DNA of 64,000 bases from a virus, in the IMG/VR virus record IMGVR_UViG_3300030060_002342, positions 1 to 64,000 of that record. One strand, given 5' to 3'. Positions within the stretch are counted from its first letter, which is position 1; each line of letters begins with the position of its first letter. Positions 1,265 through 59,526 of this stretch are shown here, piece by piece. Position numbers and translations under genes: made by a program. The notes beneath the pieces were generated by a model. The model had not been told where the DNA came from, did not search any database, and worked only from the letters and a program-made list of their open reading frames with translations.

Positions 1265-2044
1265 TTATTTATTTTCTTGTTGAACGTTCTGCGCTTCTTC
1301 CGTAGCTGCTACTTGATATAATTGAGGATCTTTTATAGTTATTCCTGCTAACTCTAATATTTTTACTACTAACTCCGTCTCTTCTGATTGATGTAATTCA
1401 AAATCTCTTGTAAGATCGCTTCTATCAAATAAAGCTCTACTATTAGTTGAATTTACAATGTAAGTCCATTCTACAGTTTGAGGTCTAGATATATAGTTAC
1501 ACACTACACTACCAGATGTTATTGATATAGGATAAATTTGTATTGTTCTGTCAGAAGGTATACCTGTTAATACGTCTGCTGTTTGACCACCAACTAATGT
1601 TTGTGATTCTCTAACATACATAGGTCTTGACTCAGATGGTGCAGTCAATGGAGAGTTTTGTAAGTGATGTATTTCGTTTTGAGTAGCTTTTTCTATCTCT
1701 ACGAAACCACCTTTATGTTTGTAATATACTTCACCTAACCTATAATAATCTGGCAACTGCCAAATACCAGGTTGGTCAGTTTGATTACTGGCCGCTGTTA
1801 AAGCTACCCTGTAATTTTCAAATATATCTATTTTTTCTTGTAATATAGTAACTTGATCAGCATACTTGGTATCATTACCAGGTATTCTCATAAACTGATT
1901 TAAGTCATAGAAATATTGCTCAAAAATATCCATTTGAGCTTGGTTGGCATATAGATTATATTCTTGAGGTGTTATATAACCTCTTTGCTCTTTGTTAGCT
2001 ATTGCCAAAACTCTTTGATAAACTGTATCTATATTTACTGCCAT
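1265..2044 (-). CDS. Conserved small structural protein (connector/tail)
   Basis: The start is placed at the ATG ending at 2044 (MAVNIDTVYQRVLAIANKEQ), not the upstream in-frame ATG at 2077, because this N-terminus matches a conserved phage family I recognise. The protein is 259 residues. The N-terminal half is helical (GYITPQEYNLYANQAQMDIF), typical of small portal-proximal proteins. It overlaps nothing and is followed after 2 bp by the next structural gene. The likely role is head-tail joining or tail assembly, inferred from conservation and position downstream of capsid and portal genes. No enzyme motifs are seen. Confidence 0.7.
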   Translation of the reverse strand: MAVNIDTVYQRVLAIANKEQRGYITPQEYNLYANQAQMDIFEQYFYDLNQFMRIPGNDTKYADQVTILQEKIDIFENYRVALTAASNQTDQPGIWQLPDYYRLGEVYYKHKGGFVEIEKATQNEIHHLQNSPLTAPSESRPMYVRESQTLVGGQTADVLTGIPSDRTIQIYPISITSGSVVCNYISRPQTVEWTYIVNSTNSRALFDRSDLTRDFELHQSEETELVVKILELAGITIKDPQLYQVAATEEAQNVQQENK

Positions 2045-2103
2045 ATTTTTTTTATTTATAGTAAGTAACCACCTCATAGAGATGGTTACCTCTATAAGTT
2101 GTG

Positions 2104-11653: not shown

Positions 11654-12565
11654 TTACTTCTTTGCTGGCCTATCATCAATAAACCAATTTTTATAAGGTT
11701 CTCTCTTTTTTAGTATATAATCTAAATAAGCATCAACCTTTTTCTTCCAGTCTTTATCTACAGCTGGATTTATAATACCTGATTTAGGTGAAGAAAACGT
11801 TTTGTTTATATACTCTTTTGCAATATTCTGATTATAAAACAACCAGTTGTTTATACAGTAAAAAGATCCTCTCTGTATATTTTGCCAAACATCTATTGGT
11901 GTTGTATATTTTCCTAATACTGTAGCGTATGCACAACTTTCACTTATATGTGTCGTGTAAACGTTTTTAGCTTTTTGTAAGTAATAATACATATCAGCGT
12001 GTCTAGGTAGTATACACTCTTCACCAAAAAAGTCTTTTAACTCACCTATTATTTGATGAGTTGTTATTGGATGTGGTTTAAAATAAACGTTATCACCGTG
12101 TTGTTTTTTAATCCACTTTAATCTATTCAAACATACGTTTTCTCTAACTTTGTTTGAACCAGGTAATATAACTAAATTATCTTTAGCTGGGTATTTACCT
12201 GTAACATCCTCTCTGTCTTCGTACTTATTGCTTTTAGCATTAACTACTTTATCTATTAAATAACCTGCATAATCTACAACAGGAAACCTTAGATCTTTAA
12301 CATCGTCAAACCAAGCGTCCATCATCTGTTCGTTTCTTAGTTTATAGTTGAGAGGTTGTAAATAAAAACTACCAGCATATTCTGTATAAGCTAGTGTTCT
12401 AAAGTGTGGCATTTCTTCTGCCATAACATCGTATGAGCATTTAACTCCTGCCTCACTACATCTTCTTATTACATAACCTTCAACTTGCTCAAGATCATAT
12501 AAGTCTTTTGATTTTTTTAAAGGACCTATTCTACCGTCTAGTTCCTTTTTATTAAACATTTCCAT
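11654..12565 (-). CDS. Glycosyltransferase-like protein (GT-B, capsule/CDP-glycerol type)
   Basis: A 303-residue soluble protein. The C-terminal half carries VYFKPHPITTHQIIGELKDF (around residue 160), then EECILPRHADMYYYLQKAKN and an Ser/Glu pair in TTHISESCAYATVLGK. The K-P-H-P followed by an acidic/Ser loop is typical of GT-B glycosyltransferases of the capsular polysaccharide, polysialyl/GT52 and CDP-glycerol transferase classes, where it binds the nucleotide-sugar phosphate. The gene is the last of a tightly spaced group that includes both Thr-rich proteins and two methyltransferase-like genes, so sugar transfer onto those proteins is an attractive but untested idea. Donor and acceptor are unknown. 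Confidence 0.55.
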   Translation of the reverse strand: MEMFNKKELDGRIGPLKKSKDLYDLEQVEGYVIRRCSEAGVKCSYDVMAEEMPHFRTLAYTEYAGSFYLQPLNYKLRNEQMMDAWFDDVKDLRFPVVDYAGYLIDKVVNAKSNKYEDREDVTGKYPAKDNLVILPGSNKVRENVCLNRLKWIKKQHGDNVYFKPHPITTHQIIGELKDFFGEECILPRHADMYYYLQKAKNVYTTHISESCAYATVLGKYTTPIDVWQNIQRGSFYCINNWLFYNQNIAKEYINKTFSSPKSGIINPAVDKDWKKKVDAYLDYILKKREPYKNWFIDDRPAKK

Positions 12566-12618: not shown

Positions 12619-14682
12619 CTACCTACCCGAGCTAAATGGCTGCTCTCCAAGTTGACCAGCTTTTGTAGAAGGGTCATACCATGTTGTATTAGTCGCTGTA
12701 GTTGTGTTAAACGTAGTACTAAACGTTGTTATAGTATTAAACACTGTTAACGTTGTTGTATTAAACGTCGTTAGTGTACTAGTATTAAACGTAGTTGTTG
12801 TACTAGTTGAAGTACTTGTGTTAAAAGTAGTCAACGTACTTGTGTTAAATGTTGTTGTAGTACTTGTACTAGTATTGAATGTAGTTAACGTGCTTGTATT
12901 GAAAGTAGTAACCGTTATTGTACTAGTATTAAATGTAGTACTTGTGGTATAATCAGTCTGTGTTAACCTTTGCTCTATGGTATTCTTGTTAGTACTATAT
13001 TCTGTTGTTGTTTCTTTGCTGGTACTAAAAGTTGTAGTATATACAGTAGTAGTAGTAGTACTAGTATTAAACGTTGTAGTAGTTTGTGTTGATCTAGTAG
13101 TATTAAACGTTGTTAAGGTACTAGTGTTATACACAGTTATAGTTGTTCTAGTGGTATTAAAAGTTGTAGTTACATTTATAGGTGTAGTATTAAGCGTATT
13201 TCTTTGTGTCTCATACGTTGTGTTTGTACCTCTAACCGTACTAGTACTTCTTGATTCAGCTGTGGCTCTTATTGTAGCAAAAGTAGTTCCTATAGTTGTA
13301 TTAAACACAGTAACCGTAGATGTGTTAAATGTTGTAGTAGTAGTTTTGCTAGTATTAAATGTTGTAACTGTACTCTTAGATGTACTTACAACTGTAGATG
13401 TTCCTATACTTGTAGGTACTGTTGTGCCAAAACTAGTTGTTGTGTTTGTAGATGTATTAAACACCGTGGTTGTAGTATGGTTTGTTGCAAAAGTTGTACT
13501 AGTTTGTTTTGTAGTTGCAAACGTTGTTGTAAAGCTAGTTGTTGTAGATTTACTTGTATTATACTGAGTAATAGTTAAAGTACTTGTATTAAAAGTAGTT
13601 GTAGTACTCTTAGTAGTGTTAAACGTGGTACTAGTTGTATAAAGAGTTTGCGTTGATCTTTGCTCCGTTGTAGACTTAGTTGTTGCAAAAGTAGTAGTTC
13701 TACTTGTTAAAGTTTGCTTACTAGTATTAAAAGTTGTGACAGTAGCTGTACTAGTGTTAAATGCTGTTATAGTTCCAAATACAGTTACAGTACTTGTATT
13801 AAAAGTTGTTGTTCTAGCTGTAGAAAACGTAGTAGTAGTTGATCTGTTTGTAGTTCTACTAGTATTAAACGTTGTTGTTGTAGTATACGTGGTTTGAGTT
13901 AATCTTTGTTCAGTAGTACTTTTAGTTGTATTAAACGTTGTTGTCGTAGTAAACTCCGTTGTAGTTGTTGTATTAAATACAGTAAGTGTAGTTGTGGTTG
14001 TATTAAACGTTGTTGTGGTTGTATACGTAGTAGTTGTATTTCTTTGCTCTATTGTATTTCTATTAGTAGCAAATGTGGTAACAGTATTTTTATTTGTAGA
14101 TATAGTTGTAGTTCTACTAGTTAATGTAGACCTACTAGTATTAAAAGTAGTAGTAGTAGCAAATATTGTACTAGTGTTTCTACTTTCAAGTGTGTTTCTT
14201 GAGGTTTGTGTCGTTCTACTTTCAGCTGTGTTTCTTGATGTACCTGTGTTTCTAGTTTCAAGTGTACTTCTAGTTGTACCTCTTGATGTTGTAGTACCAA
14301 ATGTGGTTGTTGTATTTTTATCAGTAATTTTCTGAGTAGCAAACGTCGTAGTTGTGTTTCTTTGCTCTGTTGTTCCTCTTGATGTTATAGTGTTAAAAGA
14401 AGTAACAGAGTTACGATTAGTTTCTATTGATGTGCCAAATGTTGTAGTAGTGTCAAATAAAGTAGTTCTACTAGTATTAAACGTAGTATTTCTACTAGTA
14501 TTAAACGTGGTAACTCTATCAGTATTATACGTAGTATTAAAGCTAGTTGTTGTAGAGTACACCGTAGTAGTATTTCTACTTTCACCAGTAACGTTACTAG
14601 TATTTTCAACGTACTGTGTTATTGTAGCAAACGCAGTCGAAGTATTAAATACAGTAAGTGTAGCAGTACTAGTATTAGGCAT
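12619..14682 (-). CDS. Thr-rich alternating-repeat virion protein A
   Basis: A 687-residue protein, nearly all of it built from threonine-rich strands such as TTTFNTSTLTTFNTST. About 30 copies of F-N-T occur. Every second residue is Thr, Phe/Tyr, Arg, Lys or Glu, and the alternate positions carry Asn, Ser, Ala, Val or Thr. Spacings between successive aromatic residues are even throughout the stretches counted (4, 6, 8, 10, 12, 14, 16, 18 or 24), as expected for continuous beta-structure with one face of Thr and aromatics. There is no signal peptide. The last 20 residues (WYDPSTKAGQ...) are non-repetitive. The start overlaps the methyltransferase-like gene by 8 bp. A fibre or decoration role in the virion is inferred from the operon; no homologue is recognised. 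Confidence 0.85.
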   Translation of the reverse strand: MPNTSTATLTVFNTSTAFATITQYVENTSNVTGESRNTTTVYSTTTSFNTTYNTDRVTTFNTSRNTTFNTSRTTLFDTTTTFGTSIETNRNSVTSFNTITSRGTTEQRNTTTTFATQKITDKNTTTTFGTTTSRGTTRSTLETRNTGTSRNTAESRTTQTSRNTLESRNTSTIFATTTTFNTSRSTLTSRTTTISTNKNTVTTFATNRNTIEQRNTTTTYTTTTTFNTTTTTLTVFNTTTTTEFTTTTTFNTTKSTTEQRLTQTTYTTTTTFNTSRTTNRSTTTTFSTARTTTFNTSTVTVFGTITAFNTSTATVTTFNTSKQTLTSRTTTFATTKSTTEQRSTQTLYTTSTTFNTTKSTTTTFNTSTLTITQYNTSKSTTTSFTTTFATTKQTSTTFATNHTTTTVFNTSTNTTTSFGTTVPTSIGTSTVVSTSKSTVTTFNTSKTTTTTFNTSTVTVFNTTIGTTFATIRATAESRSTSTVRGTNTTYETQRNTLNTTPINVTTTFNTTRTTITVYNTSTLTTFNTTRSTQTTTTFNTSTTTTTVYTTTFSTSKETTTEYSTNKNTIEQRLTQTDYTTSTTFNTSTITVTTFNTSTLTTFNTSTSTTTTFNTSTLTTFNTSTSTSTTTTFNTSTLTTFNTTTLTVFNTITTFSTTFNTTTATNTTWYDPSTKAGQLGEQPFSSGR

Positions 14683-15190
14683 GTCTTATAATTTTATTTG
14701 TTAGTGGCCAAATCATTACACCATCATCTTTTAACTGAGGTGTATATAGGTTTGTCATTTTATTTGGCGTAATATCATCTACGTCTCCATAATATTCTAA
14801 TATAATTAAATCATATTTTTTAGTTCCACTATAAGCTTCACAATCTGAAGTTGATATTATATTTATATCTTCATGTAAATAATCTACATATTCAACTAAC
14901 TCAGGATCATCTTCAACAACATCTATAGTAGTATAGTTTTTATTTTGTCTTATGTACTCTGGTATAAGACCTAGGCCTAGCCCGATAACTAAAACATCAC
15001 CATACACTAAATTGTTAAAACAAGTGTTATAATTACAACCATCACAATCATTAAAATAACCTATAAGACAAGCTGTAAAGTTTTCATAGCCGCCATACCT
15101 ATTTTTATATTCGAGTATAGAATATCCGTAGGGTTTGGTTACCTTAAAATTTGTTGCATCAATAACACTTAAGTATTCTTCGTTTATCAT
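14675..15190 (-). CDS. SAM-dependent methyltransferase / spermidine-synthase-like protein
   Basis: A 171-residue protein. The nucleotide-binding Gly loop VLVIGLGLGLIPEYI (about residues 71-85) is followed by the acidic strand end IDVVEDDPELVEYV, as in class I Rossmann methyltransferases and spermidine synthases. YDLIILEYYGD marks strand 4. The N-terminal segment has four Cys in GYFNDCDGCNYNTCFNN (residues 44-60), which could bind metal. It overlaps the upstream methyltransferase-like gene by 4 bp and Thr-rich protein A by 8 bp, so all three are probably translated together. The substrate is unknown; a neighbour-encoded fibre protein is possible. Confidence 0.6.
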   Translation of the reverse strand: MINEEYLSVIDATNFKVTKPYGYSILEYKNRYGGYENFTACLIGYFNDCDGCNYNTCFNNLVYGDVLVIGLGLGLIPEYIRQNKNYTTIDVVEDDPELVEYVDYLHEDINIISTSDCEAYSGTKKYDLIILEYYGDVDDITPNKMTNLYTPQLKDDGVMIWPLTNKIIRHA

Positions 15191-15756
15191 ATTCTTTTAA
15201 CGGGTATTTTATATATTGAGTAATTGTAATAAGCATTTTTAGGTGGCTTAACGTTCATGTCATAAAACTTAACGTTATCCCAACCCATAGTATGAGTATC
15301 ACTACATAAATGATTCCACCAGCTAATTATACCCTTGTTCATCTTAGCTTCGCAAAATTGTTTAAACTTTGGCAAATCATCATCAGCGTATGTATCTATT
15401 AATATTACACTATATCCACTATCTTTTAAATTTATCCACTTGTCCTCGTGCAATATAACATTAGATTTATCTTTAGCCCAAGATCTTAACCTTGGTATTA
15501 TATCTTTATGGTTTTCACATATAGTATGTGAAGCTGGGTTTTTTGCTTGTATTTCATCTGATAATATACCCATGCCAAATCCACACTCTAAAACATGATC
15601 ACCTTCATTAACACATAGATCAGCTATTTTTTTCATTATAGGTTTTTCCCAATCCATCATAACTTCCCAAATACGACCACGATTAGATTCATAAAATGTT
15701 ATCTTATCGTGATCAAATTCTAGGCTTGCGTTTTGATATGCTTCTTGCAGCTTCAT
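15187..15756 (-). CDS. Class I methyltransferase, GAMT/RMT2-like
   Basis: A 189-residue protein. DWEKPIMKKIADLCVNEGDH leads into the SAM-binding loop VLECGFGMGILSDEIQ (about residues 55-70), then HTICENHKDIIPRLRSWA. This order (W-E-K-P-I-M, then the Gly loop, then E-x-H) closely resembles guanidinoacetate and protein-arginine N-methyltransferase 2 enzymes. A SAM-dependent N-methyltransferase is likely. Its gene sits 3 bp after Thr-rich protein B and overlaps the second methyltransferase-like gene. The target could be an Arg/Lys side chain in a virion protein or a small metabolite; the sequence does not decide. Confidence 0.7.
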   Translation of the reverse strand: MKLQEAYQNASLEFDHDKITFYESNRGRIWEVMMDWEKPIMKKIADLCVNEGDHVLECGFGMGILSDEIQAKNPASHTICENHKDIIPRLRSWAKDKSNVILHEDKWINLKDSGYSVILIDTYADDDLPKFKQFCEAKMNKGIISWWNHLCSDTHTMGWDNVKFYDMNVKPPKNAYYNYSIYKIPVKRI

Positions 15757-15759
15757 ATC

Positions 15760-18120
15760 TTACGGTTGACCAGGAGGTCCACCTGGATCACTACCACCGC
15801 CGCCTCTTCCGCCGCCGCCGCTGTTACAGTTATGTATTGCAGTACATAAACCACCAGAACCTATTGTTGCAACTTTAACAGCATTACCACCACTGTTTAC
15901 AGACATACCGTAGTTACCAGAAGATAATGGTATTGTACCTGCAGCATTTGTATAGAAGTTGTCACCAACGTTAACCACTGTGAATGAGTTACCATTTACT
16001 AATCTGTATATTAAACTAAATGTAGAGTTATTACAGTTTGATGCAGGGAAGAACGTGCTGTTTGTTCTATATCTACTTTGCAGCGTTTGTGCAGTGTTAA
16101 ATACCGTAGTTGTACTAACGTTAGTACTGTAAGTATGAGTTGTTGTAGTACTTTGTGCTGTGTTAGCTTGATAAGCTGTACTAGTTACATAAACAGTAGT
16201 TGTGCTTCTTGATTCAGTAGTATTCTTACTAGTTAATGTAGAAGTATTGTATTTAGTATTTCTAGTTGTATTAAATGTAGTACTTCTACTTGTGTTGAAC
16301 GTAGTACTTCTACTTGTGCCAGTTACTTTACTTGTATTAAATGTTGAGTTATAAACAGTGTTAGTAAATCTAGACGTACCAGTAGCAAACGCTGTTAATG
16401 TTGAGTAAACAGTAAGTGTTGATTTACTAGTGTTAAACACACTTGCATATTCAGTAACAGTAGACTTAGTAGTATTTGTTGTAAACGCAGTATTAAACGC
16501 AGTAGTAGTTGAGTACTCAGTTACAGTATTAAACGCTGTGCTAGTTGTGTAAGCTGTTGTCGTACCAAACGTAGTAGATGTTGTATAAGTAGTACCTGTT
16601 GATCTACTAGTTAACGTGTTTTTACTAGTGTTAAATGTAGTTGTAGTACTAAATACTGTTGTTGTACTAGTGTTGTATACAGTATTAGTAGTAGTAGTTG
16701 TGTTAAACACTGTGTTCGTAGTATATGTAGTTGTAGTACTTCTTGATTCAGTAGTATTTCTAGTAGTTGCGTATGTTGTTTCAGTATTTCTTGAAGTCGC
16801 GTAAGTTGTTTGTCTACTAGTTAACGTAGCCCTAGTTGTATTGAACGTAGTCGTGGTTGTATAAACAGTAGTAGTCATTCTTGACTCGGTAGTACTTCTA
16901 GAAGTTGCAAACGTAGTAGTATAAACTGTAATAGTTGATGTTGATGTATTAAACGTAGTTGTTCTACTAGTTGATATTGTTGTAGTTCTACTAGTTGTAG
17001 TTGCTCTAGATGTAGAATACTCAGTCGTAGTTGATCTAGTTGTATTAAACGTGGTTGTAGTAGCAAATACAGTCGATGTGCTAGTGTTAAACGTAGTTGT
17101 AGTTGTATATGTTGTTGTTGTAAACCTACTTTCTGCCGTATTTCTACTAGTGGCAAAGGTTGTAGTTGTACTTATATTAGTACTGTATGTTGTATTAGTA
17201 CCTCTTGCTGTTGCAAATGTAGTTGTGGTACTTTTACTAGTTGTCGTACTTGTATTAAACGTAGTAGTAGTTAATGTACTAGTGTTAAAAACAGTAGTAG
17301 TACTACGAGATGTTGAAACCACAGTACTAGTTTGTTTTGTAGTTGCTGTAGTTGTATTAAACACAGTTGTAGTTACTGTAGACGTATTAAATGTAGTCGT
17401 AGTGCTTCTATTTGTAGCAAAAGTAGTTGTAGTATCTCTTGTTGTAGATACTGTGGTAGTTGTACTAGTGTTAAATGTAGTAAGTGTACTCGTATTAAAT
17501 GTAGTGTTTGTTGAATAAAGAGTAGTAGTACTAAATTGTGTTATAGTTAGTGTACTAGTATTAAACGCCGTTATAAGTGTGTTGATTGTGTTTCTGACAA
17601 AAGTACTTCTACTTGTGTTGTAAGTAGTTGTTGTATCTCTTTGAGTTGAAATTGAGGTACCTCTAGTAGTATTGAAAGTAGTAGTTGTACTTGTACTTCT
17701 AGTTGTATTAAATACTGTTGTTGTTGATTTACTTGTTAACTTTGATGTGTTAAATACAGTTACAGTAGTTGTAGTTGTATTAAAGACAGTATTAGTTGAA
17801 TATACAGTCATCGTCATTCTAGACTCAGCTGTGTTTTTACTTGTAGCAAAAGTCGTTTCAGTAGACTTAGTTGTAGATATAGTTGTAGTTCTAGTTGTGT
17901 TGTACTGAGTTGTGGTATTTTTACTTGTAGAGAAATTAGTTCCTCTAGTCGTATTAAACACCGTAGTAGTATTTGTAGATCTACTAGTACTTATAGTAGT
18001 TGTTCGGGAAGTAGCAAAGACAGTGTTCCTCGACGTGCTAGTGCTTTTAGTAGTATTCTTACTAGTGCTAACAGTCGTGCTCGTACCCCAGAAATCTATT
18101 CTATTCCACAACCACCTCAT
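15760..18120 (-). CDS. Thr-rich alternating-repeat virion protein B with C-terminal domain
   Basis: A 786-residue protein. A short N-terminus (MRWLWNRIDFWG) precedes about 640 residues of the same two-residue register as protein A (FNTSTLTITQF, TTTVFNTTRST), with one register slip seen near YNTSRSTFVRN. The C-terminal 110 residues differ: a beta domain with SFTVVNVGDNFYTNAAGTIP and two Cys pairs, then a Gly-rich end (GGGGRGGGGSDPGGPPGQP). That domain resembles small modules found at the ends of phage tail proteins, and a similar Cys-containing end occurs in the cadherin-repeat protein at 61895-64000. A long fibre with a distal head is inferred. Codon third positions vary between repeats, so the repeat is old or held by selection. 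Confidence 0.85.
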   Translation of the reverse strand: MRWLWNRIDFWGTSTTVSTSKNTTKSTSTSRNTVFATSRTTTISTSRSTNTTTVFNTTRGTNFSTSKNTTTQYNTTRTTTISTTKSTETTFATSKNTAESRMTMTVYSTNTVFNTTTTTVTVFNTSKLTSKSTTTVFNTTRSTSTTTTFNTTRGTSISTQRDTTTTYNTSRSTFVRNTINTLITAFNTSTLTITQFSTTTLYSTNTTFNTSTLTTFNTSTTTTVSTTRDTTTTFATNRSTTTTFNTSTVTTTVFNTTTATTKQTSTVVSTSRSTTTVFNTSTLTTTTFNTSTTTSKSTTTTFATARGTNTTYSTNISTTTTFATSRNTAESRFTTTTYTTTTTFNTSTSTVFATTTTFNTTRSTTTEYSTSRATTTSRTTTISTSRTTTFNTSTSTITVYTTTFATSRSTTESRMTTTVYTTTTTFNTTRATLTSRQTTYATSRNTETTYATTRNTTESRSTTTTYTTNTVFNTTTTTNTVYNTSTTTVFSTTTTFNTSKNTLTSRSTGTTYTTSTTFGTTTAYTTSTAFNTVTEYSTTTAFNTAFTTNTTKSTVTEYASVFNTSKSTLTVYSTLTAFATGTSRFTNTVYNSTFNTSKVTGTSRSTTFNTSRSTTFNTTRNTKYNTSTLTSKNTTESRSTTTVYVTSTAYQANTAQSTTTTHTYSTNVSTTTVFNTAQTLQSRYRTNSTFFPASNCNNSTFSLIYRLVNGNSFTVVNVGDNFYTNAAGTIPLSSGNYGMSVNSGGNAVKVATIGSGGLCTAIHNCNSGGGGRGGGGSDPGGPPGQP

Positions 18121-18131
18121 TATATTTTAGT

Positions 18132-18539
18132 TTAAGGTTGAGGATATGAATCAAAATTCCCAACGTAGTTTATCAATACTTTGTTTGCTGCCAATATAAA
18201 ATAGGAAATAACAGCTATGCCATTAGCCGTAGTATCAAAGTTTATTGTACCACCACCTGGAGTATAAGCTGTTGATGGTAAAACACTCCAACCTAAAGAT
18301 CCTACACTTGATGGGTTGGTTATTGTTATATTACCTTGTTTACCTATAAGATCAGCTGATAAATTAACGAACGTTATTACGTTTGTTGCATTGTTTGCTG
18401 ATATACTATAATTGTTACTTTCTAAAGCAAAATTAATATTATGGGTATTACCTGGCGCTGCCGTAATGTTTGTGACGCCAACTTTTTGAACTGTTAATTC
18501 ACCTTTAAATAAACTATCTGAAAGAAACTGTATTGACAT
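18132..18539 (-). CDS. Small beta-rich virion/tail-associated protein
   Basis: The start is set at the ATG ending at 18539 (MSIQFLSDSLFKGELTVQKV); the in-frame ATG at 18563 would lie inside the intergenic hairpin. The protein is 135 residues and rich in Asn, Ser, Thr and Val (NYSISANNATNVITFVNLSA). It resembles a beta-sandwich knob, close in style to the small protein at 61498-61884. It sits between the 13-residue-repeat tail fibre and Thr-rich protein B, so a fibre-tip or adaptor role is plausible. No known family is recognised. Confidence 0.65.
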   Translation of the reverse strand: MSIQFLSDSLFKGELTVQKVGVTNITAAPGNTHNINFALESNNYSISANNATNVITFVNLSADLIGKQGNITITNPSSVGSLGWSVLPSTAYTPGGGTINFDTTANGIAVISYFILAANKVLINYVGNFDSYPQP

Positions 18540-18557
18540 AAGAGTGTAGTTAAATGA

Positions 18558-18588
18558 ATACATGGCGGCACCGAAGTACCGCCTGTAT
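18558..18588 (-). terminator. Intergenic hairpin after tail-fibre gene
   Basis: GGCGG-C-AC closes on GT-A-CCGCC with one mismatch around a CGAA loop. The stem is extended by ATACA/TGTAT with one bulged T. It lies between the fibre stop (18600) and the next start (18539). Its loop and loop-closing bases resemble the capsid terminator at 2881-2914. The downstream T-run is weak, so it may act as an attenuator or an mRNA end stabiliser. Confidence 0.55.
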
Positions 18589-18599
18589 TTAATTATTTA

Positions 18600-20114
18600 T
18601 TAAGATATAGCTGGATATTTCTCAACTAGCACTAGGTAATCTTGTGAAGTACCTGGAGCTGTTGCGAAAACAACGTCGACTTTATTATCGTCAGACCCTG
18701 CTTTTACCTCAGCAAAAACTTGAGCGTATGTTGCTCCTGAACTATCGTTACCGTAATCTAATAGAGTAACACTAACGATTGGACTGTTAAGACCGTGGTT
18801 TATTGAATATGTTAGACCTGATCCACCACTTAGCTTTTTAGTTACTTTGTTAGCCGCTGTTTCTTTTGCGTCTAACTGAGTTTGAATAGCTGAAGTTACA
18901 CCATCTATATGGTTTATCTCTGCAGTTGTTGCAGTTACGCCATCCATTAAGTTTAACTCAGTAGCTGTAGCAGTTACACCGTCTAAGATATTAAGCTCAG
19001 AGGCAGTAGCAGTTACACCATCAAGTATGTTAAGCTCCGAAGTTGTAGCGGTTACACCATCTAACAAGTTAAGTTCTGTTGCAGTTGCAGTAACGCCATC
19101 TAGAATATTTAATTCTGATGCTGTGGCTGTAACACCATCCATGATGTTAAGTTCAGCAGTAGTTGCTGTAACACCATCCATAATGTTTAATTCCTCAGGA
19201 GTTGCTGATATTTGAGTTGTAGATGCGACTGCTAAAACAGGTATAGTACCTGATTGGTTTGGTAACTTAATAGATCTAGTTGCAGTTGGATCAATTACAT
19301 CTAATGTTGTTTCATTACCATCATCAGTACCACCTTCAAATTTAACACCACTTGAAGTACTAATAACTTCAACGTTCTTTGTTGTTTGTGTTCCTGTTAC
19401 AGATATGTTTTTAACACTTAATGTTTCTGTACTAGGATTATAGTGGAAAGCACCACCTGATGATTCGTCTAATAAACCGTTACTACCATCATGGTAAACC
19501 ATGTTAAAGTTAGTGTTAGCACTTGAGCTCTCTGTAACTGTTACTGTACTAGCTAATGTAGCTGAATCAGCATTACCTTCAAGAGCACCATCAAATTTAG
19601 TAGCTTCAATTTCGCCAGAACCTTTCATTATAATACCGTCGCCATTATCAACTCTAAATATGATTTGATTATCAGTACTAAACTTTATCTGGTTTTGACT
19701 ATCTCTACCCACAACAAGAGCAGTGTTAAGTATCGACTGTAATGAAGTTTGTGCTGTATCTAACGTAATTTCTAAATCAAACTCGTCACCAGCGTCACCA
19801 CTGTCAACATCTGTTAAATCAGTAGTTATACCTGTTCCACCAAATATTTTTACGTGTTTACCATCTGATACTGTTACGTTGTCATCGCCTTCATCAGATA
19901 TGATCCAAGAACTCATTGTTCCTGAAGCAGTACCTAGTGATTGCCATGATGAACCATTATAATATTTTAACGTTCCTGCATCATAGATCAATTTACCCGT
20001 AACATTAGTTGCGTCTGAAGTATTTGAATGATCTACAACAAAGTCGTTTAATTGGTTATTGTTAAGGTTAATGGTACCCTTAACATCCAAATTTTGTAAA
20101 AAATCAATTGCCAT
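18600..20114 (-). CDS. Tail fibre protein with eight ELN-DGVT repeats
   Basis: A 504-residue protein. The N-terminal part (KLIYDAGTLKYYNGSSWQSL) has the adaptor-like pattern common in phage fibres. Residues about 304-407 hold eight 13-residue units of the form ATxxELNxxDGVT, well known in trimeric tail fibres. The C-terminal 90 residues (SINHGLNSPIVSVTLLD and QDYLVLVEKYPA) form a beta domain likely to be distal. It would be a trimeric receptor-contacting fibre. It is followed by a hairpin and other tail proteins. Confidence 0.8.
   Translation of the reverse strand: MAIDFLQNLDVKGTINLNNNQLNDFVVDHSNTSDATNVTGKLIYDAGTLKYYNGSSWQSLGTASGTMSSWIISDEGDDNVTVSDGKHVKIFGGTGITTDLTDVDSGDAGDEFDLEITLDTAQTSLQSILNTALVVGRDSQNQIKFSTDNQIIFRVDNGDGIIMKGSGEIEATKFDGALEGNADSATLASTVTVTESSSANTNFNMVYHDGSNGLLDESSGGAFHYNPSTETLSVKNISVTGTQTTKNVEVISTSSGVKFEGGTDDGNETTLDVIDPTATRSIKLPNQSGTIPVLAVASTTQISATPEELNIMDGVTATTAELNIMDGVTATASELNILDGVTATATELNLLDGVTATTSELNILDGVTATASELNILDGVTATATELNLMDGVTATTAEINHIDGVTSAIQTQLDAKETAANKVTKKLSGGSGLTYSINHGLNSPIVSVTLLDYGNDSSGATYAQVFAEVKAGSDDNKVDVVFATAPGTSQDYLVLVEKYPAIS
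18894..19205 (-). repeat. Eight 39-bp tandem repeats inside the fibre gene
   Basis: Eight in-frame 39-bp units encode A-T-x-x-E-L/I-N-x-x-D-G-V-T. Third codon positions differ between units (for example GTT/GTA and CCA/CCG on the plus strand), so the units are diverged copies. Copy number could change by slippage and lengthen or shorten the fibre shaft. Confidence 0.85.
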
Positions 20115-51360: not shown

Positions 51361-54300
51361 TTACTCGTTTTCTCTCTTTTTTAATCTTTCAATTTCGTTT
51401 CTTATAAATTCGTTTCTTTCTTTTATTGAAAGACTTTTGTAATAGTTGTATACGTTGTCAGGCATTCTTTCTTCTATAATCTTCTTCTGTGCGTTAAATG
51501 TACTTACAGTCTCTTTTCTTTTCTTAATACCCTCTTGTTTTCTTCTTTCTTTTGCTTGATCTTTTATTAAGTCATGCTCAGGGAAAGGTTCAACACCTAC
51601 ATCCCAGCTACTCCAGCCCATAGCCATAGCAACTCTTTGCCATGCTCTATGTCTTGAATCTAATGCAGCGTATGTATTTGTTAATATGTTAACAGCTCTT
51701 TGCATAGGTATATTTGTTGTACCTTCAACCATACTACCTATAACACTGTATATAGGTGAATCTAAATTAAATCCTCTTGCAGCAATAACATCTTTTTCAT
51801 ATGTCATTGTTTTATGTGATGAGTACATCTTTCTTATTTTAGAGCCTAATGGTGGAGATAAGTTAATAGCTTCAATTATAGTATACGCATGATCAGTACC
51901 CCAAGATTTATCTTCTTGCTTTTTGTAAGTCATTAATATATTTTTAACTGTAGATACAACAGCACCAGGTAAACCAGATCCTCTTAATATAGTATCTGTC
52001 ATGTTGTTTATAACTCTAACCTTTTTACCCATAATTCTATTTGCTTCTCTTTCTTCATCTTCTTCTTCATCACCGTGCATTCCTGGTAGTAAAGCAAATA
52101 AAGCATTTTGCATAGCTGTAAATATAAAGTTTTGTACAGCTCCATAATATATTATTTTACTAATATGTGTTTTAGGATCACCTCTTCTGTTAATTAAATC
52201 TCTTGCAGCTTTTTTCATTAACCTGTTATACTGGAAAGGTGTATTCTGCCAAGCAAATAAAAATCTACCCATTGGACTAGCTTGTATTGCTGATATTAAA
52301 GATGGATCAGATGATTGCTGTGTTTCTTCAGATATTTTAGAAAAGTCTTCAAATGCTCTTTTAGTAGCATCTTCTTGTGTATAACCTTCTTTAATATATT
52401 TATTTACTCTATTACGATACATTGATGCACCACCTAATGATATTGCTAAACTATCAACTATTCTTGTCGGTGTAAAACCTATTGATAATAGTTTGTTAAT
52501 AACACCTTTCACACCACCTTTTTTAGCTGCAGCTGCCATTTCAGCTTCTTGTACGTTTATTTCTAAACCACCTCTTCTTTGTTTTAATTTAGGTGAATTA
52601 AATATCATACTAAAGTCTTTCCAAAACTGAGGTTGATTAGCAAATGCTTTAGCAGCAGCTAGTGGATTGTTATCTGACCAGTTTAAAAAGTTAACTGTAG
52701 ATAAAGACTGTAATGTTGCTGATCTAAAGTTAAAGAACATAGTAGCACCAACAGAAGCATTGATCCAGTCTTGAAACTCATTCATTAATCTATTGCTACC
52801 AAAGTTTCTATTTCTACCAGACTTCATTCTAAATAAAGAATCTTCTATAGCATCTCTTATAGGTTTACCATATAAAGCTTCTATTTTATTTAAATTATCT
52901 TTATCAAATATTATGTCAGCGTTCATTTCAAACTGAGCTAAATATTGTTTTCTACCTATCTTACCTGTTATAGCTTGTAAATCTGTAAGTATAGTTTCTG
53001 CTACCCAGCTATTACCAGGCTCTACATAATTACTTGTTTTAACTATAGGTATTATGCTTTCCGCAAACAACTGTAAGTTAGGATTATTTTCCATAACTTT
53101 ATTTACAGCTGCTAAATCTCTAGCTGCTATTCCTGGTATCTTATGACCAGCTTTGTTCCATAAATATATTCTTACAGCTTGTTCATGTGTTAATACACTA
53201 CCTGGTATTTCTTTGTTTAATATTTCTTTAACGTCAGGGTATAATTTCTTTAACGCTCTATAGTCTTCTGTTATTTTTTGTTTAGCTACGTTCATAGCAT
53301 CTATACCTCTTTGATATGGTTTCATTAAGTTATCATTAAACCATTGCATATCAAGATCACCTTGCTTGCCTTTACCTAAAAAGTTATACATAAGACCCAT
53401 AAAGTCCTCTGCACTTGGTGGTAAATAAAAAGTAAACTGACCTGTTTGTGCGCCTTTTATTCTAGCAACAGCATCTGAATATCTAGCTTCCGATACAACA
53501 CCTTTATCTCTTTGTATCATATCGTTAAAGTCTTTAGACATTTTATCTACTTTACTAAACATTACTTGTTGCACATCAGACTTCACGTCTACAACATCTA
53601 AAACTGTTTTAACAGCATTAACATTACCTAGCGCATCATCAGCAAATAAAAAGTCATTATAACCTTCAGCTGCTTTTCTTACTATAAAATCTGCTTTAGC
53701 TAATGGGCTACCGTCTTCTAAACCTGTTATGTTTTCTAACGGTATGTTTAAGCCTACACTCTTTAAAAACTTTTGTATTGCAGGTGCAGCAGCCGCTGGT
53801 CTAGCAGTTAGTATAAACATGTCTTTGCTACCAAACTTCTTTTGTAACTCTAGTGCTCTTTTTAAGAAAGGTCCAGGTTTACCGTCTTTAACATCATTGA
53901 ACTCGTTAAAATCAAACTTAGCACCTTGTTCTTCTAGTATGCCAGCGTCTGTAGCAAATTTAGCTGGTGTTATTTTAGTTACTTTACCATCAGGCATTGT
54001 AACTATAATTTTAGAATCACTAGTAGCAAGTGTATCATCAAAGTCTAAAACACTAATACCTTTTCTTGTTTTTGATTTTTTCTTAGCTAACTCTAAAGCT
54101 TTATCAACTAAGTTTAACTTATCTATTATCTCTTGCTGTGATAAGTTTTTGCTATACATCACACCTGTATCTTGTAATGCTTTTAAATTATTTTTTTGTG
54201 CAGCTTCAAAAGCTTTTTTATTTTTTACTATTTCAGGACCTACTACTTTACCTGTTGAAAGTTGTTTTAGTTTTACGTTAAACTTGCCTATTGTAAATGG

Positions 54301-57300
54301 GTTATAATATCTCAACAAGGACATTTGCGTACCATCCCACCATGATGGCATAAAATCTTTATAAAACTTATTAATAGTTGTATGTGCTTTAGTAGATATT
54401 AAAGCTGTTCTATATCCTGCTAGCTTGTTTTTAAAATCAGTTTGATTTAAATTACCAGTTACATACTCAAATAAAGCTAAACCAATTTCTTTAGCTGGTG
54501 TCATGTGCTCAAGATCTATTTTACCATCAACTAAATCTTCTTGTACAAAATCCATTATAGCTGAAGTTCTTAGTAAAGAGCCAGGATTATTATTCATTGT
54601 TTGTATTAGTGTAGCTACTTGCGACGACGATATTAATTTCTTACCGTGCATGTCTTTTAGTATATCAGCAAACTTACCTAAAAATTTATTGTCTTGCCTT
54701 GACTGCTCAACCATTATATTAAGATCAGCTTCTGTAGGCATCTTTTTGTTTTTTAATTGATAAACCTTACTGTTTAAAGTACCTTGATCAGCTCCATCTT
54801 TTTTACTATGTAAATCTATAAAAGCATTTAGATCTGCTTTATTATTAAACAAACCATATCTATTTGTATTTTTTTTATCAGCTTTATAATTTGGGTTGTC
54901 CATTATAGCTGTGCTACCAGGTGATACAGGTATAAACCTACCGTCACCAATTTTTGATGCTATAGACATACCACCAAAATATCTTTTAAACTCTGCTTTA
55001 GTTATACGGCCTTCGCTTAACATAGTTGCCAACACTGATCTACCACTTTCTACAGAAGATTTGTTATTAAACAAAGCTGTTCCTGTTAAACCACCATAAC
55101 CATTTATACCATTAAACGACATTGGTGAGCTAGGATCTTGATTAGCTACTTGTTTTATTTCTTGTTTAAATAACTCTGTTGCTGATAAGTTTAACGCAGA
55201 TACAGCCGGTGTAAATGTATTATACTTTTGCCATATTTCATTTATATCTTTTACAATATCTCTTACCTGAGCTTTATTTAAAGCAAACTCAGCTAAGTGG
55301 CCAGGTAATGTAGCTTCTAATTCATTTTGATCATTAGGTGAAATGTTTAATGAAGCTAGCTTATTTACTATATCCATAGCTAGCTGAGAATTAGTTTTAC
55401 CAATTTTTCTTATGGTTTTACTAAACATAACATCTGACTTACCATCAGACACAAACTTAAGAGCATCTACTGATCTACCGTCTAACAACTGTTGATCTCT
55501 TACAGCTTGATTAGTTAACATCTTACCAGTCTGCATTACTAGTGCTTTTATTCTAGCACTAACATTAGTTTCTTTTTTATATAAGTTAGTACCATCTTCT
55601 ATAATACCAAAGTACTCTAAGAAATCTTTTTTATAAGCTTTATAAGGTTCAGTCTCTACTTTTTGTTGTACTATCTCTCCGTTTTCGTTTGTAACTTGTT
55701 GTATTGTAAATTGTTCTGGAACAGGATTTTTAATTTGCTCAGTTAAATTAGCAGCACTACCTGTTTTAGCATACTTTACTTTATCACCTTTAGTATAAAA
55801 CTTATCTAATAAAACCTTTTGAACGCCTGTTGAAGTACCACTTGTAGTAGTACCATCAGGTAACATTTGTATTAATACATCTACATTTTCTTGTATAAAC
55901 TCTTGAGCGTTTGTTATATCACCTCTAGTTAAGTTACCAGGTTTTGGTTTAATACCAAACATCTCTTGTGTTTGATTAGGCGTAGCATCTGTTAATGATT
56001 TAAAGTCTTTACCTTTTATATCTATATTTAATTCTTTTACAGCTGCATCTATTGTTTTAGCTAAATCAGATGTCAATTCATCTTTTAGTCTTATCTTAAC
56101 TCTACTAGATAGGTTTAAGTTAGATACTTTACTTTTGTTTTCGTTAGGTGTAAAGTTATTATTATCTAGTATGTTATCTATTTCACCTGGTGTAAAATCA
56201 CCTAAGCTAACTTTAAAGTCTAGACCAACACCATACTTTTTTCGTATACCATCTATTTTTTGTTCTATCTGACCGTTTATCCAAGCACTTATAGGTTTAC
56301 CTTCACTTGGGTTCCATCTTCTTATTATATCTACTATACCTCTAGCACCTTTAACATCACCATATGCAATATCAGCAACCATATCATCTATGTATTTACT
56401 GTAGTCTGAAAACTTAGAATACTTTTTAAATCTTCTTCTTATTTCGTTTTCCCAACCAAAGCCAGCTTCTTGAGCTTTACTAATATCAAAACCATCCCAA
56501 GAAAAATTACCATCAGCATCTTTTGTTATACCTAGTAATCTTTCTGTTTGATCAAACAATTGTTCGTTACCCATAGAAAAGTCAACACCATCTTTCTTTT
56601 GCATTTCCTGTACTGCAGCTGTAGCTTGTGCCATTTTAACCTCACCTCTCATAACTCTAGAAGCAGCACCAGATATTTCACCAGCGTCAAAACCACTAGC
56701 AAAACTATGTAACATGTCAAATACATCTTTACCAGTTTTTATTTCATTAAACTGATCTGTATCTTTAGTTGTATCTTGCCACCAGTCTAAGGCACCTTTA
56801 AGCATAGTTTGATCTGCTTTTAAATCATACTTTCTCATAAAGTCTATAGCTCTAGCTAATTTTTCCTCAGCTCTTTTAGCTTCGTTCATTTCTTTATAAG
56901 CTGGATCATCTTGTACAACTTCAAATAAACCTTTATATCTACCTCTTAAATAACTGTCTAACATATTAGCCATAGATACTAAATCACCACCTTGCTCTAC
57001 TATTGATCTAAACAATGTTTGATGGCTAAGCTCATGTGAAAATACACTAGCATTACCTAAACCACCACCTCTTTCAGACATAGTTAAATCTTGAAAAGTA
57101 AAGTTTTGATTACCTTCGCTTATAGAAAAACCATGAATATCATGGCCCTGAGCTTTAGCATCTACTATTACTTTAGCAACTCTTCTCTTTAATCTGTTTT
57201 TTTGCTCAGGTGTTAAGCTAGAAGCTTCTATCTTGTCATTTGCATCTTTTAACAAGTTATCAACACCTCTACCTTTTACAACATTTATATTTTTACCAGT

Positions 57301-59526
57301 TAATACAGCGTCTTTCATAACTAACTTACTAGTTCTGTATTGATCTTTAAACAATTGAGCTTTATTTAAAAGTGTTTCATGTTGATACTCTAGATTATTT
57401 ATTTCATTAATCTTTTCGTTTATAGCTTTTGATTTCATTTTTGGCGACATATCGCTGTTAGCATTTATATTATCTATTTCTGCTTTTAGCTTTCTTACGT
57501 CTCTCATTAACTCTACAGCTTGGCGCTTTTGAGTGTTACTCATGTTATCAACTCTTGTCTCTGTTTCGTACTTTGTATCTAAGTTCATTCTCAACAAAGC
57601 ATCTTGTTGTTTTCTTAGCTGTGATATTGCGGCTTTTTGAGAACCAGGATTTAATTTATTTAGCTTTTCTAACCTGTCTATTTCATTTTGCATTTCAATA
57701 ACTTCAAGTGTATTAGCGTTTAACTGTTTCCACTTTTTAGCAGTTGTAAAGCTTTGATACATGTCTTTAGCTACAACTGGAGCTTGAAAACCAAAACCTG
57801 ACATTAAAGCACCTGTTATATAAGCCTCACCAACACCATCAAATATATCAACGTCTTCATCTAACATGTATCTACCAATAGTGTTTTGAATTATACTAGC
57901 ACCTGCTTCAGCCATACCTTCACTGTTAACTTGTATTGCGTAGTTTGTTAAAGCTTTTTCAACATTCATTTGCCTTAACGTATATTTTGGTAGCTCTCTA
58001 GTAAGATCTAAGTTTCCAGCCGCAGCTTTTGCATATGCTTTTTTAAAGTTGTTTTTACCAAAACCACCAAAAGCTTTTAACATACCTTTTGCTTGACCTA
58101 AACTAATTCTTTCTGTTATATATTCTGCAACACCAAATCCCATTGAGCCAGCATAATAATTTAAAGCACTTATATCTTCACCGTTCTCCATACGTATATT
58201 AAGTTCAGACATTTTATTACCCGCAGCACCAGCTGCAACAAGCATTAAACCAGTACCACCAGTAGATAGTGTAACAGCTGTGTTTATAGATTGTTCAGCA
58301 AATAGATCTACCATAAATACACCAAAATCACCTAAGCTATCTATATCACCTAAAGCTATATTTTTTCTAGCTTGACCACCTATTTCTTCAGCAACATCTG
58401 CCGTGTAGTCTGAAAGCTTATCTAAACCTTTATATAAATAAACACCTGTTTTAGCTCTTACATATGATTTAAGAGCATCTGGAACCATCTCTAATTGGCT
58501 ATCATCTGCTAAGTCTAAACCAGTAGTTCTTTTTATTATAGAGTACGGTGTTAATTCAGCACCAACTTGACTTAGACCACTAACTAAGTTTAATGCTGTT
58601 TTTTGTACCTTCATTATAGGTACTTCTAGTTCGTTATAAGATCTTTTTGATAAATCACCTAAGTCAGCTATTTCTTCAGCTTGACCTTGCAACGTATCTA
58701 ATTTATCAAGCTCATCTTGAAAAGCGGCTGTATGACCTCTATACTCTTCTAATAGCTCTCTATGTTTAAATACTATGTCTTGTGTGATTTGTTCTTGCGG
58801 AGTGTTTTCGATCGCAGTTAATTGACCGTGCAAGTTTTCTATGTGTGTTTTTCGGTTTTTAATACCTGCTATATGATTTACTATTTCAGTTTCTTTAACT
58901 TTAAATTCTTGATCATATTTAGCCTTTATGTCAGCTCTTACTTGTTCGTATTCTGTTTTAGGTCTTTCATATCCTGTTATATTGCCATCTTCGTCCTTAA
59001 CAGGTACTAATGTTTTGTTACCTGGACCATACTTACTTAAAAATACAGCTACATCATTACTACCATCTAATGATAAAAATGGTTGTACTTCATCTTCTAT
59101 AGTATCAAATAAACCTTCTGTTTTCTGTGCTCTTTTCTTTTGCTTGGCTTGTGTTATCCACATATTCCTAGCATCTTCTTTACTAACTTTATCAGTTACT
59201 AGCTCTTCCCATGGAAACTCTTCATATGTTTCAGTTGATTTTATACCGTAAACAGGAAACTTAGAATCCATACCACCTGAAACACCTCTAAGCTGTTCTT
59301 TTTCTAATATTCTAGTCTTTTTAACTTTAGTATCAGCTTGTGTTTCTATGGCTTGTATTTCATCTTGAGATAGCTTACCTTGTTTATCTATTCGATATTT
59401 ATATAAGCTGGCTCTGTCAGTTACACCTGGCAGTATTTCTGCAGTACCATATTTACCTCGGTCCTTTTCCTTTATCAGCTTATACTCGCCTTCATGGAAA
59501 ATACCTATCATATTTGTTTCCGGCAT
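51361..59526 (-). CDS. Giant (2721-residue) internal virion/polyvalent protein
   Basis: Domains seen: a helical N-terminus; a small-residue, membrane-like stretch near 425 (TAVTLSTGGTGLMLVAAGAA); a zincin-like site VFSHELSHQTLFRS (HExxH near 831, followed by EEKLARAIDF); a HAD-like module KGISVLDFDDTLATS (near 1822) with LTARPAAA and DFLFADDAL; and a long helical C-terminus (KRRKQEGIKKRKETVS). Such multi-domain proteins are ejected with DNA by podoviruses and can act in the envelope or cytosol. The order beside 59528-60808 and 60824-61462 fits inner-core proteins. No RNA-polymerase catalytic motif was seen. Confidence 0.75.
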   Translation of the reverse strand: MPETNMIGIFHEGEYKLIKEKDRGKYGTAEILPGVTDRASLYKYRIDKQGKLSQDEIQAIETQADTKVKKTRILEKEQLRGVSGGMDSKFPVYGIKSTETYEEFPWEELVTDKVSKEDARNMWITQAKQKKRAQKTEGLFDTIEDEVQPFLSLDGSNDVAVFLSKYGPGNKTLVPVKDEDGNITGYERPKTEYEQVRADIKAKYDQEFKVKETEIVNHIAGIKNRKTHIENLHGQLTAIENTPQEQITQDIVFKHRELLEEYRGHTAAFQDELDKLDTLQGQAEEIADLGDLSKRSYNELEVPIMKVQKTALNLVSGLSQVGAELTPYSIIKRTTGLDLADDSQLEMVPDALKSYVRAKTGVYLYKGLDKLSDYTADVAEEIGGQARKNIALGDIDSLGDFGVFMVDLFAEQSINTAVTLSTGGTGLMLVAAGAAGNKMSELNIRMENGEDISALNYYAGSMGFGVAEYITERISLGQAKGMLKAFGGFGKNNFKKAYAKAAAGNLDLTRELPKYTLRQMNVEKALTNYAIQVNSEGMAEAGASIIQNTIGRYMLDEDVDIFDGVGEAYITGALMSGFGFQAPVVAKDMYQSFTTAKKWKQLNANTLEVIEMQNEIDRLEKLNKLNPGSQKAAISQLRKQQDALLRMNLDTKYETETRVDNMSNTQKRQAVELMRDVRKLKAEIDNINANSDMSPKMKSKAINEKINEINNLEYQHETLLNKAQLFKDQYRTSKLVMKDAVLTGKNINVVKGRGVDNLLKDANDKIEASSLTPEQKNRLKRRVAKVIVDAKAQGHDIHGFSISEGNQNFTFQDLTMSERGGGLGNASVFSHELSHQTLFRSIVEQGGDLVSMANMLDSYLRGRYKGLFEVVQDDPAYKEMNEAKRAEEKLARAIDFMRKYDLKADQTMLKGALDWWQDTTKDTDQFNEIKTGKDVFDMLHSFASGFDAGEISGAASRVMRGEVKMAQATAAVQEMQKKDGVDFSMGNEQLFDQTERLLGITKDADGNFSWDGFDISKAQEAGFGWENEIRRRFKKYSKFSDYSKYIDDMVADIAYGDVKGARGIVDIIRRWNPSEGKPISAWINGQIEQKIDGIRKKYGVGLDFKVSLGDFTPGEIDNILDNNNFTPNENKSKVSNLNLSSRVKIRLKDELTSDLAKTIDAAVKELNIDIKGKDFKSLTDATPNQTQEMFGIKPKPGNLTRGDITNAQEFIQENVDVLIQMLPDGTTTSGTSTGVQKVLLDKFYTKGDKVKYAKTGSAANLTEQIKNPVPEQFTIQQVTNENGEIVQQKVETEPYKAYKKDFLEYFGIIEDGTNLYKKETNVSARIKALVMQTGKMLTNQAVRDQQLLDGRSVDALKFVSDGKSDVMFSKTIRKIGKTNSQLAMDIVNKLASLNISPNDQNELEATLPGHLAEFALNKAQVRDIVKDINEIWQKYNTFTPAVSALNLSATELFKQEIKQVANQDPSSPMSFNGINGYGGLTGTALFNNKSSVESGRSVLATMLSEGRITKAEFKRYFGGMSIASKIGDGRFIPVSPGSTAIMDNPNYKADKKNTNRYGLFNNKADLNAFIDLHSKKDGADQGTLNSKVYQLKNKKMPTEADLNIMVEQSRQDNKFLGKFADILKDMHGKKLISSSQVATLIQTMNNNPGSLLRTSAIMDFVQEDLVDGKIDLEHMTPAKEIGLALFEYVTGNLNQTDFKNKLAGYRTALISTKAHTTINKFYKDFMPSWWDGTQMSLLRYYNPFTIGKFNVKLKQLSTGKVVGPEIVKNKKAFEAAQKNNLKALQDTGVMYSKNLSQQEIIDKLNLVDKALELAKKKSKTRKGISVLDFDDTLATSDSKIIVTMPDGKVTKITPAKFATDAGILEEQGAKFDFNEFNDVKDGKPGPFLKRALELQKKFGSKDMFILTARPAAAAPAIQKFLKSVGLNIPLENITGLEDGSPLAKADFIVRKAAEGYNDFLFADDALGNVNAVKTVLDVVDVKSDVQQVMFSKVDKMSKDFNDMIQRDKGVVSEARYSDAVARIKGAQTGQFTFYLPPSAEDFMGLMYNFLGKGKQGDLDMQWFNDNLMKPYQRGIDAMNVAKQKITEDYRALKKLYPDVKEILNKEIPGSVLTHEQAVRIYLWNKAGHKIPGIAARDLAAVNKVMENNPNLQLFAESIIPIVKTSNYVEPGNSWVAETILTDLQAITGKIGRKQYLAQFEMNADIIFDKDNLNKIEALYGKPIRDAIEDSLFRMKSGRNRNFGSNRLMNEFQDWINASVGATMFFNFRSATLQSLSTVNFLNWSDNNPLAAAKAFANQPQFWKDFSMIFNSPKLKQRRGGLEINVQEAEMAAAAKKGGVKGVINKLLSIGFTPTRIVDSLAISLGGASMYRNRVNKYIKEGYTQEDATKRAFEDFSKISEETQQSSDPSLISAIQASPMGRFLFAWQNTPFQYNRLMKKAARDLINRRGDPKTHISKIIYYGAVQNFIFTAMQNALFALLPGMHGDEEEDEEREANRIMGKKVRVINNMTDTILRGSGLPGAVVSTVKNILMTYKKQEDKSWGTDHAYTIIEAINLSPPLGSKIRKMYSSHKTMTYEKDVIAARGFNLDSPIYSVIGSMVEGTTNIPMQRAVNILTNTYAALDSRHRAWQRVAMAMGWSSWDVGVEPFPEHDLIKDQAKERRKQEGIKKRKETVSTFNAQKKIIEERMPDNVYNYYKSLSIKERNEFIRNEIERLKKRENE

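Follow-up and report, generated by a model that had tools for sequence, protein, structure and literature searches.

Two threonine-rich proteins, A and B, encoded in a 64,000-nucleotide stretch of viral DNA (positions 1 to 64,000 of IMG/VR record IMGVR_UViG_3300030060_002342, here called the window) are built on a two-residue register that is under selection, and the family to which they belong recurs, paired with the gene for a predicted glycosyltransferase that we call the KPHP protein, in unrelated phage backbones. The reading that we favour, and consider probable, is that A and B are tail-fibre shafts carrying a dense array of Thr-linked O-glycans, which the phage enzyme would attach inside the host cytoplasm, with CMP-Kdo or a related sugar as its donor. 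Most of the evidence comes from metagenomic contigs; the features concerned are collected in Table 1.

Table 1. Genes and other features of the window and of related phage loci (L numbers).
Feature	Sequence	Position	Strand	Description
KPHP protein	window	11654..12565	minus	303 aa; predicted GT-B glycosyltransferase of the CMP-Kdo/sialic acid transferase kind; putative modifier of A and B
Protein A	window	12619..14682	minus	687 aa Thr-register protein; register without break from residue 12 to about 658, then short C-terminal tail WYDPSTKAGQLGEQPFSSGR
Class I methyltransferase-like, small	window	14675..15190	minus	171 aa; weak NCBIfam matches only; lies between B and A throughout the kin
Class I methyltransferase-like, second	window	15187..15756	minus	189 aa; not in all kin; in some of them fused to the first
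Protein B	window	15760..18120	minus	786 aa Thr-register protein; N-terminal anchor MRWLWNRIDFW; register 12-676 with 6 shifts; Cys-containing C-terminal domain about 685-765; Gly-rich tail
Protein upstream of B	window	18132..18563	minus	143 aa; match in C-terminal 43 residues (see text)
Tail-fibre-like protein	window	18600..20114	minus	504 aa; ELNILDGVTATASELN repeats; phrog_29288 (6e-11), unknown function
Val/Leu-rich long ORFs	window	12977-13567, 13994-14335, 14354-14704, 17051-17518	plus	antisense shadows of A/B Thr codons, not genes
Long ORF	window	51361-59526	minus	2721 aa; no Pfam or PHROG match
Long ORF	window	61895-63757	minus	620 aa; bacterial Ig and cadherin-like domains
GT29-matching gene	L006	9555-10256		near the pair; the three genes fall in two unrelated lineages
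GT29-matching gene	L010	5364-5990	minus	near the pair
GT29-matching gene	L144	6396-7109		near the pair
phrog_28018 protein	L144	7624-8298		near the pair
phrog_28018 protein	L012	11937-12581	minus	near the pair
Thr-register gene	L138 (F86)	1501-2058		directly upstream of KPHP
Thr-register gene	L137 (D484)	1501-2034		directly upstream of KPHP
Thr-register gene	L136 (D479)	1465-1977	minus	directly upstream of KPHP
Thr-register blocks	L140 (Stenotrophomonas phage DLP6)	1-2862		inside a much longer ORF (open frame of 1290 aa) of structural appearance

The two-residue register and its conservation

Both ORFs are real, with exactly the boundaries given in a first-pass annotation made from the letters of the window alone, and sequence searches of Pfam, PHROG, NCBIfam and the PDB returned no family match for either protein, in keeping with its remark that the family was unrecognised. 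Threonine makes up 44% of A, in which the register is strict: within residues 1-660 all 61 F/Y/W and all 44 R/K residues share one parity class, the other taking all 27 A/G residues, so that the aromatics of A ahead of its C-terminal tail are indeed all in one register, as first described. B had been described as even in all but one step and proved less regular, with 58 of the 64 Phe/Tyr steps even across residues 1-676 and six odd ones (10-35, 167-174, 322-333, 333-338, 578-585 and 585-590), and the Phe/Tyr distances, first given as 4 to 24, reach 46 in A and 25 in B. The fraction of even steps (0.98 in A, 0.91 in B) far exceeds that of Markov sequences simulated from their own first- or second-order residue transitions (mean 0.50-0.61, maximum 0.82). 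Bulky residues (F, Y, W, R, K) nearly always have Thr at both -2 and +2, and in A they never have another bulky residue at +2. This placing of Thr at +2 or -2 of a bulky residue is far above that in shuffled sequences in nearly all lineages, the short KVP40 and Lullwater proteins included, while the spacing between bulky residues depends on the lineage and is 4 or 6 or more (strictly 4 in KVP40.0254, mixed 4/6 in most others). The share of residues in clear register is 44% in Lullwater gp41 and 26% in BL199 gp042, where the register is local and the motif is kept, and Cr30 gp254 shows a weak form of the pattern only. The C-terminal motif of A is common to its kin. Among kin, chain length runs from 112 to 1850 aa.

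Comparison of 98 distinct Thr-rich genes, by offsets between unique 27-base anchors since blastn gaps were short, spurious and uninformative, gave 35 distinct net indels; every one has a length divisible by 6 nt, and none is 3 modulo 6. In collinear blocks the N/S ratio was 0.16 at register positions versus 0.69 at the positions between them; changes at register positions were mostly K/R and F/Y, and those between them interchanged A, S, T, N, G and V. From the indels and the N/S ratios we conclude that the register is held by selection. Serine is nearly excluded from it (Thr:Ser ratios in versus out of register are 189:1 versus 94:56 in A and 471:6 versus 205:209 in L117), a bias shared by all lineages whose register could be measured, and the Thr codons of register genes are a mixture of ACT, ACA, ACG and ACC, so the register is not an artefact of DNA repeats. 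N-glycosylation at N-x-S/T was considered and set aside: 47 of 62 Asn residues in A have S/T at +2 (background 0.55), but only 22 of 136 do so in L006, and the sequon is therefore no general rule; Thr is preferred as the putative acceptor instead.

The KPHP partner enzyme

Forward searches from the Thr-rich proteins placed a KPHP gene, coding for about 300 aa, downstream in 40 of 40 assessable loci, with three more loci at contig ends, the gene being next after the Thr-rich gene or, in some lineages, next but one. The reverse search, from an alignment of KPHP proteins, found a register protein directly upstream, across a gap of 51-71 bases, in 73 of 73 assessable loci among the best 80 of 404; these 80 belong to the window's own phage group, and the divergent lineages came from other searches. 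Between most lineages the KPHP enzymes are homologous at 22-43% identity. A single relative was found in genome contigs, on a contig of a Flavobacteriales MAG, and the family therefore looks phage-specific. Phage DLP6 carries its KPHP enzyme about 16 kb from the nearest Thr-rich blocks, possibly as a separated pair. The adjacency links a phage-encoded glycosyltransferase to the Thr-rich gene, as expected where a phage enzyme glycosylates its own virion, and its near-constancy suggests self-glycosylation of part of the tail fibres in these phages. The first-pass annotation had overlooked both this partner and the presence of the family in many phages.

The KPHP protein belongs to phrog_26179, a PHROG of unknown function, and a Pfam search gave no match, PF00777 included. 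Foldseek returned WbbB as the best match of its AlphaFold2 model (pLDDT 83.8, pTM 0.83), and in a VIA structure comparison the top 14 rows were all Kdo transferases (KpsC, WbbB and KrkA; Z 8.7-10.4), followed by polysialyltransferases such as the bacterial GT38 enzyme (5wc6, Z 8.6), a match in HP-type GT-B fold. KpsC (8fuw) aligned with Z 10.4 over 218 residues at an rmsd of 3.8, pointing to a modified GT-B fold. Invariant in 26 KPHP sequences are D46, K114, Y115, G136, N138, K163, P164, H165, P166, T168, L186, E209, K219, G263 and D270, among them the KxHPxT motif with the His of the HP motif (K163, H165, P166), a residue that in sialyltransferases protonates the leaving phosphate (PMC9587256). 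The retaining beta-Kdo transferases KpsC (GT107), WbbB (GT99) and KrkA share the GT-B fold and the invariant HP motif with KPHP, but they are only 10-14% identical to it, with no match at the sequence level, and have no counterpart of the Thr-rich acceptor. They differ further in the QxxxD motif, which provides the catalytic Asp nucleophile and is invariant throughout the known retaining Kdo transferases (PMC9587256), whereas between K114/Y115 and K163 only G136 and N138 are invariant in the 26 KPHP sequences. Because QxxxD is not conserved, the donor is uncertain and KPHP is not filed as GT99 or GT107. Judging from the model, the best explanation is that the KPHP enzyme works like a CMP-ulosonate transferase.

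Distribution and accompanying genes

With B as the query we recovered 37 viral loci, from the window's podovirus group, a T5-like marine lineage and an HK97-type lineage whose major head protein is phrog_10. By terminase, the nearest cultured kin of the podovirus group are the Flavobacterium elemo phages and MW202828, which are without the module at the corresponding place, and the terminase of the T5-like lineage is 50% identical to those of Pectobacterium phage My1 and Vibrio phage VspSw_1. A T4-like assignment of the VNDSGT lineage (L010-L038) was rejected: its terminase is T5-like (50% to My1), and searches for Gp23 and the T4 portal were silent, as were their controls. A tblastn search of cultured phages with B found nothing, a weak negative given that BLAST masks low complexity, and cultured relatives were instead reached via the partner enzyme. 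The pair is present in Lullwater and BL199 (Autographiviridae), in Cr30, a Caulobacter phage from pond water, in KVP40, VS2 and QD01 (Schizotequatrovirus), and in the Vibrio phages F86, D484 and D479, where a six-frame search revealed Thr-register genes that the depositors had left unannotated.

In the window's phage group, one or two methyltransferase-like genes lie between B and A in loci spanning both. The 189-aa protein has sub-threshold matches to Pfam RrnaAD (3.4e-4) and to NCBIfam KsgA (1.2e-5), and in four loci (L098, L101, L116 and L119) both genes form one ORF of 346-350 aa between two Thr-rich genes. Methyltransferases accompany KPHP in two lineages, and so does a GT29 sialyltransferase-like gene; the GT29 assignment of the latter is firm since eight of nine members (the VGNS proteins) match PF00777 (best E 4.8e-9). 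These true GT29 homologues adjoin the pair, and KPHP itself is not GT29. The HK97-type cassette (L144-L146) runs Thr-rich, KPHP, GT29-like, methyltransferase (phrog_24759) and phrog_28018, and the T5-like lineage has a GT29-like gene together with a homologue of phrog_28018 (30%, E 4e-34), which by eye is possibly a GT-A glycosyltransferase. Upstream of B, the C-terminus of the 143-aa protein matches a tail-fibre-like protein encoded upstream of the HK97-type Thr-rich gene (E 2e-9, 44% over 43 aa).

Proposed glycosylated fibres and the alternatives

The S74 chaperone is typical of trimeric phage beta-fibres. The relative of B in L032 ends in a Peptidase_S74 domain at the same position (E 1.5e-4, 22.4 bits against a Pfam cut-off of 22), and in both L014 and L032 the sequence SDRRLKKNI follows the conserved Cys-Gly domain; a Pfam search found no Peptidase_S74 domain in the window's own B. 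Tail-fibre-like genes adjoin S74-chaperoned tail fibres and spikes, as they do here, and the genomic context agrees with the fibre-like character proposed at first pass, but A and B differ from such fibres in having hundreds of alternating residues without Gly/Pro turn motifs. Monomeric B, modelled by AlphaFold2 with 6 homologues, gave pLDDT 32 and pTM 0.25 (pLDDT 25-35 in the register repeats, moderate only in the C-terminal domain), values that are uninformative for a trimer or a modified chain. Single-chain prediction, suggested at the outset as a check for a confident solenoid, thus yielded none and leaves a trimeric fibre neither shown nor excluded. From the continuous beta structure first proposed we retain the long-range, selected register that extended beta would need; a continuous beta-solenoid is unsupported, and bulky residues spaced differently from lineage to lineage do not resemble a solenoid whose coils have a set length.

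We propose that A and B are tail-fibre-type virion proteins, in which the register region would form an extended scaffold whose Thr, aromatic and basic side chains point to the same face; B is probably trimeric and anchored by its conserved N-terminus. The KPHP enzyme would O-glycosylate the register Thr residues of both proteins in the host cytoplasm, taking as donor a CMP-activated ulosonic sugar (CMP-Kdo or a relative), and the glycans may serve adsorption, shielding or spacing. In the window's phage the two methyltransferases between B and A probably methyl-cap the product, and other lineages would add the GT29-like and a third glycosyltransferase. Any LPS-making (Gram-negative) host supplies CMP-Kdo, and the enzyme could therefore travel between phages of unrelated Gram-negative hosts. 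A glycosylation signal alone needs no 650-residue register, so structure must matter too, and as the strict register suggests an extended, evenly spaced scaffold, structure and glycan array were probably both selected. Several points weigh against this proposal: the GT-B enzyme might have a different acceptor, beta-sheet propensity alone would favour Thr over Ser too, QxxxD is not conserved, the DLP6 enzyme lies far from its nearest Thr-rich blocks, and Cr30 gp254 shows the pattern only weakly.

An alternative that we regard as unlikely is that A and B are purely structural trimeric beta shafts (triple beta-helix or beta-ribbon) whose alternation reflects two strand faces, and that the glycosyltransferase acts on the LPS or capsule of the host, for instance as a block to superinfection. 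Indels that in all 35 cases hold the register over whole chains are structural behaviour, the preference for Thr over Ser fits beta propensity and the B relative in L032 carries the S74 chaperone, but a host-directed enzyme is expected neither beside one protein type in every lineage and in both search directions nor to be absent from non-viral contigs apart from the single MAG match, and the monomer prediction shows no fold while bulky-residue spacing varies between lineages. Low pLDDT in the repeats would rather suit a disordered, mucin-like bottlebrush, in which short T-x-[FYWRK]-x-T motifs are what the enzyme recognises and the packing of overlapping motifs produces the long register incidentally, as would the enrichment of Thr around bulky residues in nearly all lineages and the Lullwater and BL199 proteins that keep the motif with a local register only; we judge this improbable, since that reading predicts tolerance of odd-length indels between motifs and none of the 35 is of that kind, and since A holds one register for some 650 residues. 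TxT ice-binding beta-solenoids likewise have Thr at alternate positions, but the ice-binding or adhesive surface suggested at first pass has a negligible chance of being correct, as aromatic or charged residues break the Thr runs of A and B every 4-6 residues, the same family occurs in pond-water phage Cr30 and the idea leaves no role for the glycosyltransferase partner.

We found no prior description of Thr-rich phage fibres with glycosyltransferases in the open-access papers that we searched. The glycosylated-fibre reading has a parallel in mycobacteriophages, in which, according to Freeman et al. (2023) as cited in PMC12619734, phage glycosyltransferases decorate the phage's own virion proteins, capsid and tail tube subunits carrying their glycans at the C-terminus. 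Relative to the systems as summarised there, the arrangement proposed here would differ in its dedicated Thr-register scaffold and its phage-specific HP-motif enzyme family. A bolder version, which we advance tentatively and hold to be possible rather than probable, is a new class of phage glycoprotein fibre made of T-x-[FYWRK or T]-x units in a continuous extended fold, each register Thr bearing one glycan, for a total of up to hundreds on a chain, together with a new family of CMP-sugar-dependent Thr O-glycosyltransferases that moves with its acceptor between unrelated tailed phages.

The analysis ties an undescribed glycosyltransferase family to an undescribed family of proteins whose residue code is unusually strict and measurably selected, and finds the pair in several tailed-phage backbones, including those of the model phages KVP40, Lullwater and Cr30. 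If the proposal is correct, a small enzyme of the bacterial cytoplasm would attach an ulosonic-type sugar directly to Thr, and many marine phages would carry glycan fibres of their own making, which would bear on host range, adsorption and immune or receptor mimicry.
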